From the NCBI GenBank assembly GCA_017941705.1, contig JAGAVX010000138.1, forward strand, positions 1 through 64,000: a stretch of 64,000 bases of DNA, read 5' to 3'. Below are positions 1,979 through 41,851 of this stretch, piece after piece. Origin of the DNA: Atopobiaceae bacterium. GTDB taxonomy: Bacteria > Actinomycetota > Coriobacteriia > Coriobacteriales > Atopobiaceae. The notes beneath the pieces were generated by a model, which was not told the origin of the DNA, did no database searches, and saw only the letters and a program-made list of their open reading frames with translations. The translations under genes were made by a program, and so were the position numbers. How positions within the stretch are numbered: the first letter of the stretch is position 1; every line of letters starts with the position of its first letter.

Positions 1979-2656
1979 GTGACGAACTCGCCAACCAGAT
2001 TGTGGCCTCCCGCATTTGACGCTGCCATCTTTGACTTCGATGGAACCATCGCCAACACCGGATGGATCTGGGAGGAAGTCGACCGCACGTTTCTGGGCTC
2101 GCGGGGCATCCCCTACACCCATGAATACGCTCGCATGCTCTCTGTGCTCGGCTTTTCGTCAGGAGCGCAGTACACCATCGAGACCTACCACCTTGAGGAG
2201 GATCCACAGGACATCTGCGAAGAGTGGACCCGCCTCAGCCAAGCCCTCTACCACACGCGCGTGGAGTTACGTCCCGGAGTCGAGGAGTACATCATGGCGC
2301 TGCGCGGCCGAGGGATTCCCATCGCACTCGCAACCGCCAACGAGCCAGAACTGATTTCGTCGATGAGACTCGTGGACATCGATGCGCTCTTTGACGTATG
2401 CGTGCACGGACGAGACGTGGGCGTTGCCAAAGACGAGCCCGACATCTATATCGAGGCGGCTCGCAGACTCGGAGTCGACCCCCAGAGGTGCATCGTCTTC
2501 GAGGACATCGAGCCTGGACTCGTCGCGGCGCGGGGCGCCGGCTTCATCACCTGCGCCGTCGAGTCGGGAGAGGCGACACAGAACTTCGAGCGCGTAAGCA
2601 GGGTCGCCGACCTCGCCCTTCATGACTGGACAGCCCTGACCAGCCCGGAGATCTGA
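1979..2656 (+). CDS. HAD superfamily hydrolase, beta-phosphoglucomutase-like subfamily
   Basis: The 225-residue protein has HAD motif I DFDGTIANT near its N-terminus, a helical cap, the motif II region in IALATANEP, and motif III/IV residues in VAKDEPDIY and VFEDIEPGL. This is the subfamily IA layout of small sugar-phosphate phosphatases and phosphoglucomutases. The substrate cannot be told from sequence. I chose the GTG at 1979 because GAAAGG lies six bases upstream; an in-frame ATG at 1931 has no good ribosome site. The gene stands alone, divergent from the dipeptidase at 303-1715. Confidence 0.8.
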   Translation: MTNSPTRLWPPAFDAAIFDFDGTIANTGWIWEEVDRTFLGSRGIPYTHEYARMLSVLGFSSGAQYTIETYHLEEDPQDICEEWTRLSQALYHTRVELRPGVEEYIMALRGRGIPIALATANEPELISSMRLVDIDALFDVCVHGRDVGVAKDEPDIYIEAARRLGVDPQRCIVFEDIEPGLVAARGAGFITCAVESGEATQNFERVSRVADLALHDWTALTSPEI

Positions 2657-2746
2657 CGGGCACAGCGCAGCACTGGCAACGTGTGGTTTCGAACCATCGG
2701 TTTGCCGTAGGCGCTCTCCGCGCGCATGTCCACTATGAGCATGAGA

Positions 2747-3144
2747 CTTTGTCAGCGCTTTTTTCGGAAGGCACGAAAAGGTATACCTACGACCTGCTTT
2801 GTATGCGCATTTTCAGGGCCAAAATGCCTGCCTGTCAACTCACGGTCTTCAGAACTACAGACAGGATCAAAAAGGAATTGATTCTGTCACGACAAGGCAC
2901 CTACAAGACAGGTTGTAGGTGCCAGCAACACAAGCACAATGATTGTCGATTCAAGCCTTTTTGGACAGGTGCTGACAAAGCAACTTGTAGGTGCCAAATC
3001 GACGCTCCGGGCGCCTCATCGAAGCTTTGTATGCAGTTTTAGCGCTCCCTCAAAGGACACCTTTTGTTTTTGAGTCCAAAACGCGCATACAAGGCGGGTT
3101 GTAGGCGCATCTTTTTTGCACTCGTCAGAAAAGCACTGACAAGC
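2747..3144. repeat. Cluster of ten short GCRC-NN-ACAA repeats in a 570-bp gap without a credible gene
   Basis: The gap 2657-3226 is less GC-rich than its surroundings and holds ten copies, on both strands, of a motif of the form GC(A/G)C + CT, TG or AT + ACAA. Plus-strand copies are at 2896-2907, 2968-2980, 3083-3094 and 3133-3144. Minus-strand copies are at 2747-2758, 2797-2808, 2913-2923, 2984-2995, 3024-3036 and 3097-3108. Two head-to-head pairs make hairpins: 2896-2906 with 2913-2923 is a perfect 11-bp stem, and 3083-3092 with 3099-3108 is a 10-bp stem with one mismatch. A 119-codon open frame from GTG 2683 crosses the region but has no protein-like character. Confidence 0.7.
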
Positions 3145-3178
3145 TGTCGTTTGGGCAAAACGCCTCGATATAACAGAC

Positions 3179-3200
3179 GAGCGCCCACTCGGAGGCGCTC
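3179..3200 (-). terminator. Hairpin downstream of the exporter operon
   Basis: GAGCGCC at 3179-3185 pairs with GGCGCTC at 3194-3200, just past the stop of the ABC transporter gene ending at 3227. The following minus-strand sequence is only moderately T-rich, so termination strength is uncertain. Confidence 0.45.
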
Positions 3201-3226
3201 GCCATAGCCAGCTCTCTTAATCTTGC

Positions 3227-5410
3227 CTAGTCTTCCAGACGCTGCCGCTCGACAAGCTTTGCGAAGAGCCCGTCCTGAGCGACCAGCTCGTCGTAGGTAC
3301 CCTCTTCCGCAATGCGGCCCTCGTCGACGACCATGATGCGGTCGCAGTTGCGGATCGTGGACAGGCGGTGCGCGATCACCACGCGTGTGCAGTCAAGTGC
3401 GGCAAGCGAGTCGGCAACACTCTTCTGCGTGATGTTGTCGAGGGCGCTCGTCGCCTCGTCAAGCATCAGAATCCGCTTGTGACCGCAGATGGCGCGCGCG
3501 ATCATGATGCGCTGTCGCTGACCGCCCGAGATACCGCCGCCACCTTCGGTCACCATCGTCTGCATGCCCATCGGCATCGCGCGGATGTCGTCGGCGATGC
3601 CTGCCACCTCCGCCGCAGCCCAGGCGTCATCGAGCGTCGCGGTTGGGTTGGCAACCGTGATGTTCGAGAACAGGCTGCCCATAAAGAGCTTTCCGTCCTG
3701 CGTGACGACGCCAATGGAGCGACGCACCGAGCGGGGGTCGACCTTCGAGAGGTCGTAGGGTCCGTAGAGGATGCTTCCTCGGGCCGGCTTCTCGAAGCCT
3801 AGGAGCAGACGCATGATGGTCGACTTGCCGCAGCCGCTCTTTCCGACGATTGCCACGTACTCGCCTGGGCGAATCCTGAACGAGAGGTTCTTGAGGATGT
3901 AGGGCGCACCCTCGGTGTAGCGGAACGAGACGTTCGACATCTCGATTGAACCTGACAGGTTGCCGACCGAGATCTTGTCCTCGCTGACCTCCGGCTCGGC
4001 CTCGAGCAAGGGCGCGACCATCGACAGGGTCGGACGGATGAGGGCGATCTCGCCAGTCATGCCAGCAAGCGACATGATGGCTCCCGTCATCTGACCGTAG
4101 GCGACGCTGAACGACATGTAGTCGGGAACCGTCACTCCCGCATTGCCAGCAACCAAGTAGATGATCATGCTGCCCAGCATTCCGATGGCTGGCAGCAGCG
4201 CCGGCATTGCCAGAAGCAGCTTGGGGCGGTTGTAGGTGGCACGCGCATACTCGGAGTAACCGTGGGCCCATTTGGCAAACGCCCTGTTCTCGGCACCTGC
4301 AAGCTTGATCTTTTGGATGCCGCTCAACAATGCCGTCTCGGTGCCGGACAGCTTTGACGACACCTCGATGGCAGACCGCTCGAACCGTGTGGTCGCACGT
4401 GTCACGAGAATCGTGATCGCCGCCTGGACAGCCACCACCGCAAATGCGGGGAAGGCAAGATAGGGCGCATAGGCCAGGATCTGCAGCAGGTAGACGAGAG
4501 ACAGGATGAGCGAAAGCGCCGACCCCATCGTCAAGCCGACGATGCTCTGCGTCAACCTATTCAGGCGTGCGATACGGCTGCTCAAGTCGCCTGAGGCGAA
4601 TTCCTTGAAGAAGGAGGGCGGCAGCGAGAGCATGCGGGCGAAGGTCGCCGCCTCGACGCATACCCTGAGCTTGGTGCTGATGCGCCGCATGACCAGGTTG
4701 CGCGTCGCGCCGATAAGCGTGGACGACAGCGCCACACCAAGCAGCAGCACGCCGATGGGCATGATGAGGCCGGTCTGCCCGGAGGGAACCACGAGCCTGA
4801 ATGCGATGTTGTTCGCCCAGGCGGGAAGCAGGCCAATCAGCGTGACGGCGGCAGCAGCACAGATCACGGAGATGTAGTCGGAACGACCATAGGTCTGGAA
4901 GATAAACGTCAGTAGGTCAGTGACCTTCAGCGAACGCGCGGGAAGCGCGCGATAGAACAGGATGGCCTCGCGCTGGATGAGGTCGTCGGTCGTTGTCGAA
5001 AGCTTCACGTCCTCACCGGTCGCTGGGTCGATGTAGTGATAGCCCCTCATACCTTTGGGGAGCAGGGCAATCGGCTCACCGGTCTTCAAATGGCCGAGCA
5101 TCGCGCCAAAGGACTGCTGATACCACCTGTCCTCAAAGCGTACGGCTCGAAACATCGTTCCCGAAGGGCGACACATGTAGGTCATGCGCTCATCGGGGTC
5201 GTCGATGCCATCAGGCACCTCGCCGGCCTGCACGCCATAGTACTTCAGGCATTCGATCACGGCGCCGTCAGCCTTTTCGAGGTCGTTCATCCAGGGCGAG
5301 GAGAGATGGCGTGTACCGGTTACGCTGGCAGCAAGTTCGGAATACGCACGCGTGGCCATTTCGCCATCGTAGCGTGCCCGCGCATCCAGCTGTGACTCGA
5401 GCAGGGACAT
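3227..5410 (-). CDS. NHLM-type peptide export ABC transporter, permease/ATPase subunit 2
   Basis: The 727-residue half-transporter has an unusual soluble N-terminal region of about 160 residues, then six predicted membrane segments, then a nucleotide-binding domain. In that domain I see Walker A GKSGCGKST at about 523-531, signature SGGQR at 628-632, Walker B MLDE at 649-652 and the H-loop H681. The soluble N-terminal region without a C39 peptidase matches the second ABC subunit of the NHLM bacteriocin export systems (TIGR03797 type). The start follows the stop of the upstream transporter gene by one base, with AGGAG inside that gene's end, so the two are translationally coupled. It probably pairs with the C39-containing transporter. 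The exported peptide is not visible here. Confidence 0.85.
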   Translation of the reverse strand: MSLLESQLDARARYDGEMATRAYSELAASVTGTRHLSSPWMNDLEKADGAVIECLKYYGVQAGEVPDGIDDPDERMTYMCRPSGTMFRAVRFEDRWYQQSFGAMLGHLKTGEPIALLPKGMRGYHYIDPATGEDVKLSTTTDDLIQREAILFYRALPARSLKVTDLLTFIFQTYGRSDYISVICAAAAVTLIGLLPAWANNIAFRLVVPSGQTGLIMPIGVLLLGVALSSTLIGATRNLVMRRISTKLRVCVEAATFARMLSLPPSFFKEFASGDLSSRIARLNRLTQSIVGLTMGSALSLILSLVYLLQILAYAPYLAFPAFAVVAVQAAITILVTRATTRFERSAIEVSSKLSGTETALLSGIQKIKLAGAENRAFAKWAHGYSEYARATYNRPKLLLAMPALLPAIGMLGSMIIYLVAGNAGVTVPDYMSFSVAYGQMTGAIMSLAGMTGEIALIRPTLSMVAPLLEAEPEVSEDKISVGNLSGSIEMSNVSFRYTEGAPYILKNLSFRIRPGEYVAIVGKSGCGKSTIMRLLLGFEKPARGSILYGPYDLSKVDPRSVRRSIGVVTQDGKLFMGSLFSNITVANPTATLDDAWAAAEVAGIADDIRAMPMGMQTMVTEGGGGISGGQRQRIMIARAICGHKRILMLDEATSALDNITQKSVADSLAALDCTRVVIAHRLSTIRNCDRIMVVDEGRIAEEGTYDELVAQDGLFAKLVERQRLED

Positions 5411-5411
5411 G

Positions 5412-7580
5412 CTAGTTACTCCTAATCAAAGTCGCGTACGTGCCGTCCTTGGCGATCAGCTCCTCGTGGGTCCCGCGCTCATCCACCTTTCCGTGCTTGA
5501 GCACGATGATCTCGTCGCAGTCACGGATGGTGGACAGGCGGTGGGCCACCACGATGCACGTCGCCCCTCGGTCGCGGATACGCCGGATGACGTCCGCCTC
5601 AGTCTGCGCGTCCAAGGCACTGGTCGCCTCGTCGAGGATGATGATCGAGGGGTCCTGCGCCAGCACGCGTGCGATCTCGATGCGCTGCAGCTGGCCACCC
5701 GAGAAGTTGCTTCCGCCGGGAAGGATCTTGCACTGGTAGCCACCCTCACGCTGCGAGATGTCCGAGTGGATGCTCGCGTCACGACATGCAAGGATGACCT
5801 CATAGTCCTCGATGGAGCGGTCCCAAAGCTTCACGTTCTCGCTGACCGAATCCTCAAAGGTGACTATGTCCTGGTCAACGACCGCAAGCGAGCCCCTGAG
5901 GACCGCACGGGGCACCTCCTCGATGGGGACGCCGTCAAAGCGGACGCTGCCGGACCACGTCGGGTACAGCCCAGCGACGATCTTGGCGATCGTCGACTTG
6001 CCACAACCCGACGGTCCGACGAAGGCAACCCACTGACCGGGCTTGATGTGCAGGTCAAAGTCCTCGATGAGCGGCGGCTCGAGCGGAGAGTAGCCAAAGC
6101 TCACTCCCTCGAGGTCTATCTGGCCACGCAGCTTCTGACGGCCAAACTCCGAGACCTCCTCGTCGTCGTCCTCCGCATCCTCGAGCTCCTCGGGAACGTC
6201 GCACTCGTAGCGCATGACGTCCTCGACGCGCTCGGCCTGGGTTCTCATCTCCTGGATGGTCTGTCCAAGGCCAATGAGCTGCGTCACAGGCGAGAGGAAC
6301 GAAGACAGCAGCTGGTTGAAGGTAAGCAGGGCGCCTTCGGAGAGACGGCCATTCACGATGAGCCATACGCCGAGCGTCAACACGAGTACGTTGACGACGC
6401 TTGAGACGAGCATGGGCACTGCGCCGAGGTACTCGTTGAGGGTAAGGATACGGACGTCCGCCTCACTCACCGCCGCCTGGTATCCGGCCCACCGGCCAAA
6501 GTAGCCATTCTCGGCGCCCGAAGCCTTGATGGTCTCGATCATCTCGACGCCGCCGACGGTCGTCGCATAGAGCTTTCCGCTCTCGGTAGCGGCGGAGCGT
6601 GCGATATTGATGCGCCGCTCGGAGATGTAGTGCGCTAGGAAGGCGTTGATGACCACGCCGGTGACACCCACAAATGCGAGCAACGGGCTGTATCTGATCA
6701 TGGCTGCGAGATACATGACCAGCATGAGCCCATTGACCAGGACAGGCGCAAGCTCGCTGATGAGCGACATGGCGATACTCTCGTTCGAGTTCTGTCGCTG
6801 CTGGAGGTCACCCACCATACGTTGTGAGTAGAACCCGATTGGAAGGTGCAGCAGGTGGCGCATGAAGCGCGACGACGACACGATCGCTATCTTGCCACGG
6901 ATGCGATTCTGGTTGATGGCGCTTATGCCAGCCGTGACCGCCGTGACAAAGGTCAAAAGCAGCAACACCGACACGATTACATTCAGCCAGTCATAATCCC
7001 TGTTTGTGAGGACCCTGTCGACGAACGCCGTGTTGAGCGAGAGGCTGATGACGCTCACGAGGGCCGTTATCCCCGCGGTGAGCATGGCAAAGACCACGGC
7101 AGGCGCAAGGCCTTCGAGACGCTTGCGCACGAATCCGAACATGTCGGGCTTCTTGCCGCCCTCCTCGAAGGCGTCGGTCTTCTTGAACGTGAGCACGACG
7201 CCGGTAAACGCCTCGTCGAACTCCTTGAGCGAGATCTTCACCTGGCCCTTTGCCGGGTCATTGAGGTACACGTAGTTGCCCTTGAAGCCATCGACGACCA
7301 CAAAGTGCACGAAGTTCCAGAAGACGATGCAGGGAAACACATCAGACTTGCGCAGGGCATTTGTAGAGAAGGTCATGCCCTTCGCCTCGAGGCCGTAGTT
7401 GCGTGCCGTCTTGAGGATGTTGACCGCCTTCGAGCCATCGCGGCTGACGCCGCACTCGACGCGCATCTGCTCGAGGGGAACCCATCGCCCATAGTAGGCG
7501 AGAATCATGCACAGACAGGCGGCGCCGCACTCGAGCGCCTCCATCTGCATAATCTGAGGTACTTTTGCCACCTTGCCCAT
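5412..7580 (-). CDS. Peptidase-containing ABC transporter (C39 peptidase, NHLM-type subunit 1)
   Basis: The 722-residue protein begins with a C39 double-glycine peptidase domain whose catalytic residues are intact: C18 in LECGAACLC, H92 in FVHFVVV and D108 in YLNDPA. A six-helix permease and an ATPase follow, with Walker A GPSGCGKST at about 522-530, SGGQ at 627, Walker B ILDE at about 648-651 and H680. The family removes a leader after a Gly-Gly type site and exports the mature peptide across the membrane. The ATG shares its first base with the TAA stop of the preceding HlyD-like gene, so translation is coupled. An intact peptidase suggests a real substrate is encoded elsewhere on the chromosome. 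Confidence 0.9.
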   Translation of the reverse strand: MGKVAKVPQIMQMEALECGAACLCMILAYYGRWVPLEQMRVECGVSRDGSKAVNILKTARNYGLEAKGMTFSTNALRKSDVFPCIVFWNFVHFVVVDGFKGNYVYLNDPAKGQVKISLKEFDEAFTGVVLTFKKTDAFEEGGKKPDMFGFVRKRLEGLAPAVVFAMLTAGITALVSVISLSLNTAFVDRVLTNRDYDWLNVIVSVLLLLTFVTAVTAGISAINQNRIRGKIAIVSSSRFMRHLLHLPIGFYSQRMVGDLQQRQNSNESIAMSLISELAPVLVNGLMLVMYLAAMIRYSPLLAFVGVTGVVINAFLAHYISERRINIARSAATESGKLYATTVGGVEMIETIKASGAENGYFGRWAGYQAAVSEADVRILTLNEYLGAVPMLVSSVVNVLVLTLGVWLIVNGRLSEGALLTFNQLLSSFLSPVTQLIGLGQTIQEMRTQAERVEDVMRYECDVPEELEDAEDDDEEVSEFGRQKLRGQIDLEGVSFGYSPLEPPLIEDFDLHIKPGQWVAFVGPSGCGKSTIAKIVAGLYPTWSGSVRFDGVPIEEVPRAVLRGSLAVVDQDIVTFEDSVSENVKLWDRSIEDYEVILACRDASIHSDISQREGGYQCKILPGGSNFSGGQLQRIEIARVLAQDPSIIILDEATSALDAQTEADVIRRIRDRGATCIVVAHRLSTIRDCDEIIVLKHGKVDERGTHEELIAKDGTYATLIRSN

Positions 7581-8098
7581 TATGACACCTCGCCAGTGTC
7601 AAAGAGGGCAGCCAGCGGCGCGACGCGCTTGGTCGTGATGACGGCGTCCTCGACCCATCCCTTATCCACGTCAAGCTCAGCGATCTGAACCACGAAGGCC
7701 CAGTTATGGTTTGCCGGCATCAACGTGTCGGTCAGATAGTCGCTCTGCACCAGTTCGCGGACTTCTGCGCGCGAGAGCGGGACCGTCGCCACGCTCGAGA
7801 CGTATCCACGGGAGTCATCGGTGGCGATCGGGTCGTCCTGCTTCACGTTCGCGATGTCCTTGGGCGAGATGAGGCAGATGACGTCCCCCGAAGGTATCAC
7901 GACGCAACTTGCGTCGACGTTGGTCGACACCGTTCCAAAGACGCCCCAGACCAGCAACCCCACAAGCAGAGCGACGCACCCAAGGAGTGCAACCCACCCG
8001 CTGGGATTGGTGACGCGCACATACTTGTCAAGATCGTCAGGGCTACGCAGTTTCTCGTAGGCTTTCTCATTGAATATGGAGGGGGTTTCGTTTGCCAT
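7580..8098 (-). CDS. Short HlyD-like NHLM-type secretion protein
   Basis: The 172-residue protein has the head typical of NHLM secretion adaptors: a stretch around FNEKAYEKLRSPDDLDKYV, then N-P-x-G-W leading into one membrane helix at about residues 33-56, followed by a short extracytoplasmic part. Known family members (TIGR03794 type) are roughly twice as long and carry a coiled-coil hairpin and lipoyl halves, and here that part is missing. The remaining tail still has beta-rich segments such as WAFVVQIAEL. I chose the ATG at 8098, which has GGAG five bases upstream; an ATG four codons earlier lacks a site. It is first in the exporter operon. It may be a reduced adaptor suited to a single-membrane cell. 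Confidence 0.75.
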   Translation of the reverse strand: MANETPSIFNEKAYEKLRSPDDLDKYVRVTNPSGWVALLGCVALLVGLLVWGVFGTVSTNVDASCVVIPSGDVICLISPKDIANVKQDDPIATDDSRGYVSSVATVPLSRAEVRELVQSDYLTDTLMPANHNWAFVVQIAELDVDKGWVEDAVITTKRVAPLAALFDTGEVS

Positions 8099-8231
8099 GG
8101 CATCTCCCATTGCTTTCAGACATGTTGCGAGGCCTTCTCGGCCCGGTCACAAAACCACGATAGCACGTGTGCAGACAATCAGGGGGCTGTTGTCCGGCGT
8201 TTTGCCGCCGCAAGCAGGCTCCTTTGGCCTA

Positions 8232-9662
8232 CTATCCAAGGTCGAGCCGCATGAGACGCGCAATCGACATGATGTAGACCTTGAGCGCCATGCGCAGCAC
8301 CGCCTCCGATACGCCCTCGTCGGCCCCGTGCTCTGGGCCAACCCACGACGGCTGATTCCCATCATCGATATTGGGCCCAAAGGCGCATGCCTTGGCAAAG
8401 TTACGCGCGTAGGTCCCTCCGCCAATCACCATCGGCTCGGACATGTCGCCCGAGTACTCGCGGTAGGTCTCGAGCAGCGCCTTGATCTCGGGGGTATCGG
8501 GGCTCGTGTAGAACGGCACCTTCACATGGTCGCGTACGAAGGAGCAGCCATACTCGTTGGCAACACGCTCGAGCGCCGTGTCGATGTCGGTGTGCTCGAT
8601 CGAAGACGGATAGCGCGAGTCGATGGTCTGCACGAAGTGCGCCCCGACGGTACGCAGTGTGCCACCGATGCAGGTAAGCGGGCCAAACACGTCGTCAGCG
8701 CTGGCGATGCCAAGCGCAGTACCGTCGGTGTCGACGGCGCAAACCCGATGCACCAGCTTGAGGAAGCGTCGCTCGGTGGCAGAGCAGCAGTCCTGTGCAA
8801 GAAGGTAGTCGGCAAGGACGCCAATGGCATTGAGGGTTCCCTCGGGAAGCGACGCATGTCCTCCCCTACCATGGGCAGTAATCGTAACAAGCCCATCCTC
8901 GCCTGCACTGACCTCGATGTTCTTAGCCTGGGAGAGGCTCGCGGCATCACAGCGCAGCGTTGCCGTCGCACGACCCGGCACGGCATTGGGCACCGTGCCG
9001 CCGTCAAGCGAGACTATTGCGCCCCCGTCCTCACCAATGATGTCCTGCGACACGATGCTCGCATGGTAGACACCCTTCTCGCCGCAGATGAGGGGAAAGT
9101 TGCCATCGGGCGTGAAGGCGAACGCGGGCATGGGGTAGTTGTCGAGGTACCACAGCAGATCTGCCATGGTGGTCTCCTCGTCGTTGCCAATGATGCACCT
9201 GAGCGTGTAGGGCAGCCTCTCGCCCGTGCGCTCGACCTCACGTGCAAAGAAATGGGCAGCGTACAGCGAAAGCACCAGCGGGCCCTTGTCATCGATGACA
9301 CCGCGACCCAACAGGTATCCTTCGCGACGCGTGACGTCAAAGGGGTCGACCGTCCAACCAAGGCCCTCAGGCACCACATCGGAATGCGCGATGGTCGCAA
9401 TCTGCGTCGTGGACTGCCCGGGCAAGTCGGCGTAGCCGATGTAGCCTTTGCAATCATGCCCCTCGAGTCCCAAGCGTTCCGCGATGCGGAGAGCGGCGAC
9501 GAGCGCCTCGTGGTTGGCAGGTCCCCACGGCATGCCGGGGGCAGCAGCCTCCAGATCCTCCACCGAGCGTATGTGCACCAGGGTGCGCACGTCCTCGATT
9601 ATGTCCTCCCACACCTCGTCAACGAAGGCGTCAACCCGTACCTTGAGCTCCTCGTCAGACAT
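8232..9662 (-). CDS. M20 family metallopeptidase, PepV/Sapep-type dipeptidase (paralogue 2)
   Basis: The 476-residue protein matches the paralogue at 303-1715 along its length and has the same ligand positions: H93 and D95 in IAHSDVVPEG, D124 in GVIDDKGP, E162-E163 in GNDEET, D in FTPDGNFP and a late H in GPEHGADEG. The start is the ATG of MSDEELKV, with GGGGG six bases upstream; the open frame extends 56 codons further but without a ribosome site. It lies 133 bp upstream of the exporter operon on the same strand, so co-transcription is possible. A role in degrading short peptides, perhaps including cleaved leader fragments, is speculation. Confidence 0.9.
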   Translation of the reverse strand: MSDEELKVRVDAFVDEVWEDIIEDVRTLVHIRSVEDLEAAAPGMPWGPANHEALVAALRIAERLGLEGHDCKGYIGYADLPGQSTTQIATIAHSDVVPEGLGWTVDPFDVTRREGYLLGRGVIDDKGPLVLSLYAAHFFAREVERTGERLPYTLRCIIGNDEETTMADLLWYLDNYPMPAFAFTPDGNFPLICGEKGVYHASIVSQDIIGEDGGAIVSLDGGTVPNAVPGRATATLRCDAASLSQAKNIEVSAGEDGLVTITAHGRGGHASLPEGTLNAIGVLADYLLAQDCCSATERRFLKLVHRVCAVDTDGTALGIASADDVFGPLTCIGGTLRTVGAHFVQTIDSRYPSSIEHTDIDTALERVANEYGCSFVRDHVKVPFYTSPDTPEIKALLETYREYSGDMSEPMVIGGGTYARNFAKACAFGPNIDDGNQPSWVGPEHGADEGVSEAVLRMALKVYIMSIARLMRLDLG

Positions 9663-9841
9663 GGAAACCCCCATGAGCGTTCGTCGTTCGCATAATGTGA
9701 CCATTGTACTCTCAGTATGTGACTGTCGGGCAACCGGTCTTGCGATCCTCTCCATGGAATGCGATGTGGACAGACAGTTGCCGCAAGTCAGGGCACATCT
9801 ATCAGCTGCCGACCACAAGGCGCCATCCACGACCGCATATG

Positions 9842-39820: not shown

Positions 39821-41851
39821 TTACATGACGATATCGCTCTGTTGCGCCTTGCGTGCCGAGCGAATGAGGAACTCCTGGTTGTCCTTGGTGCTCTTGAGCC
39901 CCTTGACCAGTGCGTTTGCGGCGCGTTCGGTATTGTTCATGTTGGCGAGGATCCGCCTGATGCCCCACACGAATGGCTGCAGCTCGGCCTCGATGAGCAA
40001 GTCCTCGTTGCGCGTGCCCGAGGCAACCGGGTCGATGGCCGGGAAAATGCGCTTGTCGGCGAGGTCGCGGTCGAGCTTGAGCTCCATGTTGCCAGTACCC
40101 TTGAACTCCTCGAAGATGACCTCGTCCATCTTCGATCCCGTGTCGACCAGTGCCGACGCAAGAATGGTGAGCGAGCCACCGTTCTCGATGTTTCGGGCAG
40201 CACCGAGGAACTTCTTGGGTGGGTAGAGGGCTGCCGAATCGACGCCGCCCGACAGGATGCGACCGGACGCGGGCTGCGCCAGGTTGTAGGCACGAGCGAG
40301 GCGCGTGATGGAGTCGAGCACGACGACGACGTCCTCACCAAGCTCGACCAATCGCTTGGCATGCTCGATGACCAGTTCGGACACCTTGGTATGGTTGTCC
40401 GCCGGCATGTCGAAGGTCGATGCGACGACCTCGCCGCGGATCGACCGCTCCATGTCGGTCACCTCTTCGGGGCGCTCGTCCACCAGCAGGCAGAACAGGT
40501 GCACCTCGGGATTGTTGACTGCAATGGACTGGCAGATGCGCTTGAGCACGGTGGTCTTGCCGGCCTTGGGCGGCGACACGATCAGGCCGCGCTGACCCTT
40601 GCCGATGGGCGCCACCAGGTCAATCGCACGACCGGTGATGGAATCCTGCCCATGCTCCATGACCAGGCGCTCGTTAGGATAGATGGGTGTCAGGTCACGG
40701 AAGCGGGGGCGCTTGCGCATCTCCTCGGGACTCTTTCCGTTGACCGTATCGATCTGGTGCAGGGGAGGATACTTGTTGCCCGAGCGGGAGGGAGCCAGCG
40801 AGCCCACGATCTTGTCGCCATAGCGCAGGCCATACTGGCGGATAATCTGCTGGTGCACGAACGCATCGCTATCGCCAGCCATGTAGTTTCCGGTGCGCAG
40901 GAAGCCGTAGCCCTCGCTCTGGATCTCGAGGACACCCGAGACTGGGCGGAAGCCCTCCGCCAGAGCGGCGGCCTCGTAGATTGCCTCGGCGAGGTCCTTC
41001 TTGCGAACACCCGCATACTCGACCCCAAGCTCTGCGGCCTTGATTCGCAGGTCCGCGACCTTCATCTCGGCAAGCTCCTCGCGCGTAAGAGAGGGCTCGA
41101 GGGCCTGTTCCTGCTGGTTGCGCCTGTTGCGACGACGGTTCTGGTTGTTACGCCGCCCGTTCTGCTGGCCGCCGTTTCCATTGCCGCCATTGTTGTTCTG
41201 CTGCGCGTTCGACGAATCGCCAGAGCCATTGCGGCGACGACGGCGTGATTGGCCATTGGATTGACCGTTGAGGGCGTCTGCCTCCGCCAGCGTCGTCGCG
41301 GGAGCCCCCATCGGGATGGAGCTCGCCTGAGTCGCCTCCTGAGTGGCGCGCGTCATCTCCTCGATGCGCATCTGGGCATCCATCTGCGCCTGTGCGCTGG
41401 CGTCCGCCACCATCTGGCCGGAAACGTCGGATGTGTCGGAGCTCATCCCTTCGCCCTCGACAGTCTCCGCGGCCTTTTTGGATGAACGGCGCTTGGGAGC
41501 CGGTTCAGCAGCCTCTGCCTCGGGAGACGTGGACTCCTCGGCTGTCTGGCTGTCCTGCTCGGCCTCAGCCTTGCGGGGACGACCACGGCGGCGCTTGGGT
41601 GCAGGAGCCTCCTCGCCATCCTCAGCAGCGACGGCAGTATCTGCAGCCTCAACGTCCGCCTTGCGTGGACGGCCACGACGCCGCTTTGGTGCAGGAGCCT
41701 CCTCGCCATCCTCGGCAGCGACGGCAGTATCTGCAGCCTCAGCATCCGCCTTGCGTGGACGGCCTCGACGCCGCTTGGGTGCGGAGGCCTCCTCTATCGC
41801 AGGCTCTATCGTGACATCAGGTTCCTGACTTACCGTGGTCTCTTCGGCCAT
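39821..41851 (-). CDS. rho: Transcription termination factor Rho with AT-hook-like N-terminal repeats
   Basis: The 676-residue protein is much longer than E. coli Rho (419). The C-terminal 420 residues are standard Rho: RNA-binding domain (LEIQSEGYGFLRTGNYM), Walker A PPKAGKTT, Walker B VVVVLDSITRLARAY and the Q/R-loop region around LSGGVDSAALYPPKK. The N-terminal insertion, as in many Actinobacteria, starts with three tandem 28-residue repeats carrying APKRRRGRPRKA, an AT-hook-like core in an acidic background. An Asn/Gly/Arg-rich stretch near residues 220-250 follows. The ATG at 41851 has AAAGG upstream. Extra DNA or RNA binding by the repeats is inference. Confidence 0.95.
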   Translation of the reverse strand: MAEETTVSQEPDVTIEPAIEEASAPKRRRGRPRKADAEAADTAVAAEDGEEAPAPKRRRGRPRKADVEAADTAVAAEDGEEAPAPKRRRGRPRKAEAEQDSQTAEESTSPEAEAAEPAPKRRSSKKAAETVEGEGMSSDTSDVSGQMVADASAQAQMDAQMRIEEMTRATQEATQASSIPMGAPATTLAEADALNGQSNGQSRRRRRNGSGDSSNAQQNNNGGNGNGGQQNGRRNNQNRRRNRRNQQEQALEPSLTREELAEMKVADLRIKAAELGVEYAGVRKKDLAEAIYEAAALAEGFRPVSGVLEIQSEGYGFLRTGNYMAGDSDAFVHQQIIRQYGLRYGDKIVGSLAPSRSGNKYPPLHQIDTVNGKSPEEMRKRPRFRDLTPIYPNERLVMEHGQDSITGRAIDLVAPIGKGQRGLIVSPPKAGKTTVLKRICQSIAVNNPEVHLFCLLVDERPEEVTDMERSIRGEVVASTFDMPADNHTKVSELVIEHAKRLVELGEDVVVVLDSITRLARAYNLAQPASGRILSGGVDSAALYPPKKFLGAARNIENGGSLTILASALVDTGSKMDEVIFEEFKGTGNMELKLDRDLADKRIFPAIDPVASGTRNEDLLIEAELQPFVWGIRRILANMNNTERAANALVKGLKSTKDNQEFLIRSARKAQQSDIVM

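Follow-up and report, generated by a model that had tools for sequence, protein, structure and literature searches.

Layout of the array in the window

The DNA analysed here is a 64-kb stretch (the window), in which a cluster of short repeats lies between two convergent genes, encoding a HAD-IA family hydrolase and an NHLP bacteriocin-type export ABC transporter. The initial annotation reported ten GCRCNNACAA-type units on both strands at this position. All ten are real (starting at 2749, 2799, 2897, 2913, 2969, 2985, 3027, 3083, 3099, and 3133), with eight matching the pattern exactly and those at 2969 and 3027 deviating from it. The pattern occurs 10 times in the window, with 8 matches falling within the approximately 400 bp at 2749–3142, and 100 whole-window shuffles gave a mean of 4.9 matches. 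The motif density is far higher than background, so that the count against shuffled sequence, which had been proposed as a check, did not refute the cluster. The ten units occupy a fixed lattice of 12 positions, of which the remaining two (2783 and 2855) are degenerate. The locus consists of the following features.

2000–2656, plus strand: neighbouring gene on the left, for a HAD-IA family hydrolase (above the TIGR01509 cut-off)
2749–3142, no strand: complete array of 394 bp, made up of two facing halves and set between convergent genes
2748–2924, plus strand: left half-element (match to model R1, 91.3 bits)
2749–2758, minus strand: site 1, TTGTCAGCGC followed by a T-tract
2783–2792, plus strand: site 2, degenerate ATACCTACGA, a lattice position
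2799–2808, minus strand: site 3, TTGTATGCGC
2855–2864, plus strand: site 3b, degenerate CTACAGACAG
2897–2906, plus strand: site 4, GCACCTACAA
2913–2922, minus strand: site 5, TTGTAGGTGC, forming a dyad with site 4 (centre 2909.5)
2923–2968, no strand: centre between the halves, 46 bp; in other copies unrelated sequence, with its length in one-helical-turn steps
2967–3142, minus strand: right half-element (match to R1, 100.3 bits)
2969–2978, plus strand: site 5', GTGCTGACAA
2985–2994, minus strand: site 4', TTGTAGGTGC, forming a dyad with site 5' (centre 2981.5, at a distance of 72 bp from the inner dyad of the left half)
3027–3036, minus strand: site 3b', TTGTATGCAG
3083–3092, plus strand: site 3', GCGCATACAA
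3099–3108, minus strand: site 2', TTGTAGGCGC, forming a dyad with site 3' (centre 3095.5)
3133–3142, plus strand: site 1', GCACTGACAA
3227–5410, minus strand: neighbouring gene on the right, for an NHLP bacteriocin-type export ABC transporter (TIGR03797, score of 704.3 bits against a cut-off of 709.4)

The two ends of the array form a 14-nt inverted repeat that is 93% complementary, and the dyad centres, taken from the coordinates, are spaced 114, 72, and 114 bp apart. The strands of the units alternate and their spacings are mirrored, in contrast to direct repeats with regular unique spacers, in agreement with the earlier judgement that the cluster is not a CRISPR. Its position downstream of the exporter operon, which reads towards the array (from 3227, minus strand), is true but incidental, because other copies adjoin unrelated genes. 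Among the hairpins that had been described, one is perfect (2896–2906 with 2913–2923), while pairing is not clearly the property that is conserved.

Elsewhere in the window, dipeptidase-like genes at 303–1715 and 8232–9830, whose translations are similar by eye, bracket the NHLP exporter genes. The HlyD-like NHLP secretion protein encoded at 7580–8110 has just 176 aa, aligns below the cut-off to positions 1–64 of a 421-position profile, and looks like a fragment. A tandem repeat with 2.5 copies of a 90-bp unit (91% matches) is located at 41568–41794.

The repeat family and its helical phasing

In the genome of the window (G000; 2.81 Mb in 171 contigs), GCRCNNACAA occurs 356 times, compared with 142 times for the reversed control pattern (2.5-fold), and a DNA search returned 116 matches. 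Site mapping round these matches revealed a half-element of approximately 175 bp with sites at 0 (−), 34 (+), 50 (−), 106 (+), 148 (+), and 164 (−). A full copy consists of two facing halves, the second being the mirror image of the first. Each half contains two back-to-back dyads, with the ideal form GCACCTACAA-N6-TTGTAGGTGC, together with the single sites 1 and 3b. The dyad places two TTGT/ACAA boxes ten bases, or one helical turn, apart, and A/T-tracts flank most of the sites. A first guess was that the sites might be XerC/D-, Tn7- or resolvase-like.

The sequence-only model R1 was built from 51 halves, whose alignment (A1) retained 51 of 89 fixed-offset template matches after removal of repeats in the inner register and of any half mismatched at two or more bases of site 1. 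Searching G000 with R1 identified 60 halves at ≥75 bits, and the stretches examined comprise 37 elements, of which 26 are double and 11 are single halves. The genome holds about 39 intergenic array copies, a figure obtained from the 37 by subtracting one (C152 and C136 carry one element, with an overlap of 141 bp) and adding three (C86, C116, and C128). Because a fixed-offset template was used to select A1, its lack of gaps arises partly by construction; the count from the model, free of this bias, gives a net indel in 4 of 59 G000 halves and 2 of 35 halves of a second species, G008, all of 1 bp. Single halves make up 11 of 37 elements in G000 (some cut by contig ends) and 24 of 31 in G008, and the double form is therefore not always needed. 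Partial arrays were considered as autoregulatory sites and rejected; those on C128, C116, and C86 are truncated where their contigs end.

Over the 51 halves, pair identity is 0.74–0.92 at the six sites, 0.34–0.36 in the spacers, and 0.26 in the flanks. Within a G000 element, the two halves resemble each other (0.343) no more than other pairs of halves do, and no recently copied pair of halves was found in G000, where the largest spacer identity (0.55) lies within the column-permuted null; short-read assemblies can lose near-identical copies, which bears on this absence. The near-saturation of the spacers beside intact sites indicated selection on each copy, and most G000 copies look old and individually maintained. 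Sites 2 and 4 nearly always read A.CT (44 and 45 of 51 halves, respectively), site 1 mostly reads G.TG or G.AT (34 of 51), and site 3b is variable. The switching of the middle bases among CT, TG, and AT first noticed in the window is real and depends on the lattice, as the favoured middle bases differ from one position to the next.

Analysis of 24 outer lengths, two of them extrapolated from the model (L065, cut by a contig end, and L070, in which site 1 is missing), revealed 11 at 393–395 bp, with the others measuring 404, 404, 416, 425, 435, 437, 446, 447, 457, 466, 477, 487, and 488 bp. These 13 longer lengths fit steps of 10.4 bp (R = 0.91), a fit reached by a fraction of 5e-05 of 20,000 random sets when any period from 5 to 20 was allowed. 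The inner dyad centres are 6.83 to 15.96 turns apart, near integers (7 to 16), and the sequences between the halves are unrelated among copies and are not tandem repeats. The AT content of the spacer between sites 3b and 4 follows a 10.2-bp period (R² of 0.72; 0 of 1,000 permutations), with A and T being interchangeable. Whole-turn phasing and this AT period speak for bent double-stranded DNA and against RNA. Several observations count against a looped array. The spacer between sites 3 and 3b has a poor period (13.8 bp, R² of 0.43), all masked spacers pooled give a period of 11.9 bp, not 10.4 bp, and phasing in G008 is weaker (7 lengths, R of 0.68–0.84 for periods of 10.0–10.5 bp). The single halves, and the genus genomes lacking a match and the limited clustering described below, count the same way.

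Sequence dialects and genomic placement

The exact dyad pattern is present at 40 places in G000 and at few in relatives, and from its search in 40 relatives, genome_contigs, and viral contigs the family was taken to be species-specific. This idea was wrong, since the model search revealed other sequence dialects. The five outside records with exact dyad matches (Patiriisocius, Macrococcoides, Geobacteraceae, Bacteroidales, and Coriobacteriaceae) look like single terminator-type hairpins. Among 140 genomes of the family, R1 found matches in 7. G008 has the same lattice with the letters TTGTCTGTAC, GTACAGACAA, and related forms, and its examined stretches contain 31 elements, 7 of them double. 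Alignment A2 holds 24 of 26 G008 halves, and the G008 model (R2), with at most 148 candidates scored per genome, matched 6 of 18 genus genomes at an E value of 0.01 or better and gave no match in 12. In G016, the motif is TTGTCTGCGG, with spacings of 36/16/56/42 and spans of 346 or 377–378 bp, the difference being 32 bp, or three turns. The G016 copies are younger, because their sites are 0.93 identical and their spacers 0.52 identical on average (up to 0.83). G003 and G014 hold one array each, read by eye. Comparison among related species, as suggested in the initial annotation, revealed that the architecture is kept while the letters of the motif change. In a second genus of the family, a 117–120-bp palindrome starting with TTGTGTGCRG is found at 13 places in 3 of 31 genomes (G124, G125, and G137; loci L220–L228, L141, and L142). 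Its ends read TTGTGTGCRGTTTTT, and GTAG/GTAT motifs lie further in; it is likely kin to the arrays, to judge solely by its end motif and A/T-tracts.

In the G000 and G008 stretches examined, no copy lies inside a gene called by our home-made codon scorer, and the proteins encoded next to the arrays are of unrelated kinds. The junctions are 13 convergent, 13 tandem, and 5 divergent in G000, and 11 convergent, 15 tandem, and 3 divergent in G008. Of 60 elements, 24 lie in convergent junctions; in the background, this orientation accounts for 45 of 429 junctions overall and for 30 of the 222 with a gap longer than 100 bp. Divergent junctions hold 8 of the 60 elements, compared with 61 of these 222 gaps. 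Four of the 31 G008 element positions are common to G000, with a rough expectation, by our own estimate, of 0.5–1. At the locus of an aldo/keto-reductase-like gene beside azlD, G000 has a full element and G008 has one half; the gap is short in G003, G013, G014, G002, G015, G011, and G009, and the neighbours differ in G005, G007, G017, and G004. The differences at this locus and the shared positions indicated that elements are gained and lost and that some positions are old. Clustering along the chromosome is seen only in G008, in which contig C4 (235 kb) carries 10 of 31 elements (binomial P of 0.001) and C12 (738 kb) carries 5; the GC skew of the G008 contigs is too weak a signal to place them.

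Several further arrangements were noted. At G008:C12:144343-144752 (L157), an array adjoins relatives of the dipeptidase and HAD genes of the window in a changed order. Single halves face outward round one or two genes, over 1.4–2.2 kb, at G000:C69:9155-10698, G008:C4:178238-180193, and G008:C11:14811-17057; the enclosed genes, considered as candidates for the binder, were rejected, being unrelated to one another. Downstream of the aldo/keto reductase gene, in the gap that holds an array in G000, G016 (L183) and G006 (L191) have long inverted repeats of another kind, whose arms carry GGGACACGCCC or GGGACGGTCCC.

Proposed looping complex and competing explanations

Selfish hairpins or terminators are the usual interpretation of dispersed repeats in bacteria. 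In this family, it is the geometry in helical turns and not the letters that survives, so that sequence alone predicts a complex on double-stranded DNA. Our preferred reading, to which we assign a probability of about 0.6, is that the cluster is a dispersed operator array on which a putative dimeric protein assembles a complex of bent and looped DNA. The observations on which it is based are the repeat family, its fixed geometry, the conserved sites, the phasing, the AT period, the placement, and the dialects. Of the three readings offered in the initial annotation, a binding-site array and a repeat family are supported, whereas a structured RNA is not. A putative sequence-specific dimeric DNA-binding protein would sit on each dyad, and the same protein could fill the single sites and bend the spacers, with the two halves being joined face to face across the centre into a compact loop. 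The complex may contribute to chromosome structure, for example by forming a topological boundary or a gyrase-type relief point at gene ends, and this role at gene ends is the least certain step. More tentatively, the arrays might represent a family-specific protein–DNA system in which several hundred sites at tens of loci are rewritten in each species together with the protein, while the geometry is kept to the base pair and the recognition code drifts faster than the architecture. If true, this would be a natural system for the co-change in specificity of a protein and hundreds of its sites, and would allow one to ask what acts at convergent gene ends. Letter-based repeat searches miss such families, the geometry being present in relatives under another dialect.

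The dispersal of the arrays could also be that of a non-autonomous, MITE-like mobile element, a possible but doubtful explanation under which the halves would be transposon ends, each with several transposase or recombinase sites, and the helical phasing would reflect synapsis of the ends on a short element. The array ends do read TTGT...ACAA within the terminal inverted repeats (14 nt, 93%), but no target-site duplication of 2–9 bp was detected at offsets 0–13 beyond an extension of the palindromic end motif (sets of 10, 24, 7, and 10 elements). Copy numbers vary among species, and the azlD-side locus, full in G000, half in G008, and a short gap in seven relatives, fits gain by movement, whereas the four positions common to the diverged species G000 and G008 do not. 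Similarly, the younger G016 copies, with left and right halves in types recognisable by eye, favour mobility, while G000 is without recent copies, yet its motifs are intact. No coding version was recognised in any copy, no array with genes between facing halves was recognised in the G000 and G008 stretches examined, and searches of phages, plasmids, and viral contigs gave no matches. In G016, at least, the elements have spread as whole units. From the absence of duplications, the near-saturated G000 spacers, and the younger G016 copies, we think that units spread at times and were afterwards held for function.

A bidirectional transcription terminator or a structured RNA between convergent genes is very improbable. 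The order of A-tract, dyad, and T-tract resembles an intrinsic terminator, and the enrichment at convergent junctions and the terminator-like exact-dyad matches in other taxa point the same way; 28 of the 60 elements, however, lie in tandem junctions and 8 in divergent ones. The hairpin pairs are 83.7% paired, compared with 83.2% in shuffled columns (29 of 500 shuffles reach the real value), and of five covariation measures, two slightly exceed the shuffles (5 and 15 of 500 reach them) and three do not, making hairpin covariation at best marginal. Rfam gave no match at the gathering threshold in the window and none at E values up to 1 in 2650–3230, and twelve sites over 400 bp with whole-turn phasing would be left unexplained. 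The position-specific site variants resemble tuned operators, but it is highly improbable that the arrays serve a conventional regulon made up of the genes beside them, given that promoter-rich divergent junctions are not favoured (8 of 60 versus 61 of 222) and that the neighbours are functionally unrelated.

According to excerpts of two reports (PMC3116915, PMC3733652), REPINs are dispersed extragenic palindromic units with conserved ends, a less conserved spacer, and a type that varies among species. As far as those excerpts go, dispersal, extragenic palindromes, conserved ends, and species-varying sequence are common to the arrays and the REPIN/RAYT systems of Pseudomonas and others, and G000 and G008 each contain one RAYT-like gene of about 260–280 aa. 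It is nevertheless very unlikely that the arrays are REP/REPIN-type elements moved by a Y1 (RAYT) transposase. They form a twelve-site lattice of approximately 400 bp rather than two short REPs, with little covariation in pairing, and their whole-turn phasing in double-stranded DNA is unexpected from a single-strand mechanism. G014 and G006 have arrays but no Y1 match, and the REPIN tag GTAG, which lies inside the G000 motif TTGTAGGTGC, is by eye absent from the G008 and G016 motifs. RAYT as the mover of the arrays was rejected on the gene flanks, in which other inverted repeats are found on both sides and no match to either half model occurs nearby.

The arrays point to an undescribed DNA-looping system, and a literature search limited to open-access papers found no description of such arrays. 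The BIMEs of enterobacteria have been reported to bind gyrase and IHF. Like the arrays, they are intergenic palindromic mosaics, often near gene ends; in a comparison of general features rather than of consensus sequences, the arrays differ in having dyads set at whole turns and a binding that is putative. The sites of matS/MatP, Noc, and RacA are single short palindromes, with tens of dispersed sites per genome. The arrays likewise occupy tens of dispersed loci, which may be uneven along the G008 chromosome, but each locus is a 12-site array and the binding protein is putative. Looping operators of lambda CI, lac, and AraC have dyads at whole-turn spacing and single sites of graded sequence, features that the arrays share, whereas the arrays are found at about 39 places per genome regardless of promoters. 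The RAYT-like genes and their inverted repeats are a separate REP-type system: the Y1 genes in G000 (L239, G000:C123:10451-10786) and G008 (L238, G008:C4:108475-108807) have a C-terminal extension, and each carries its own, differing inverted repeats.
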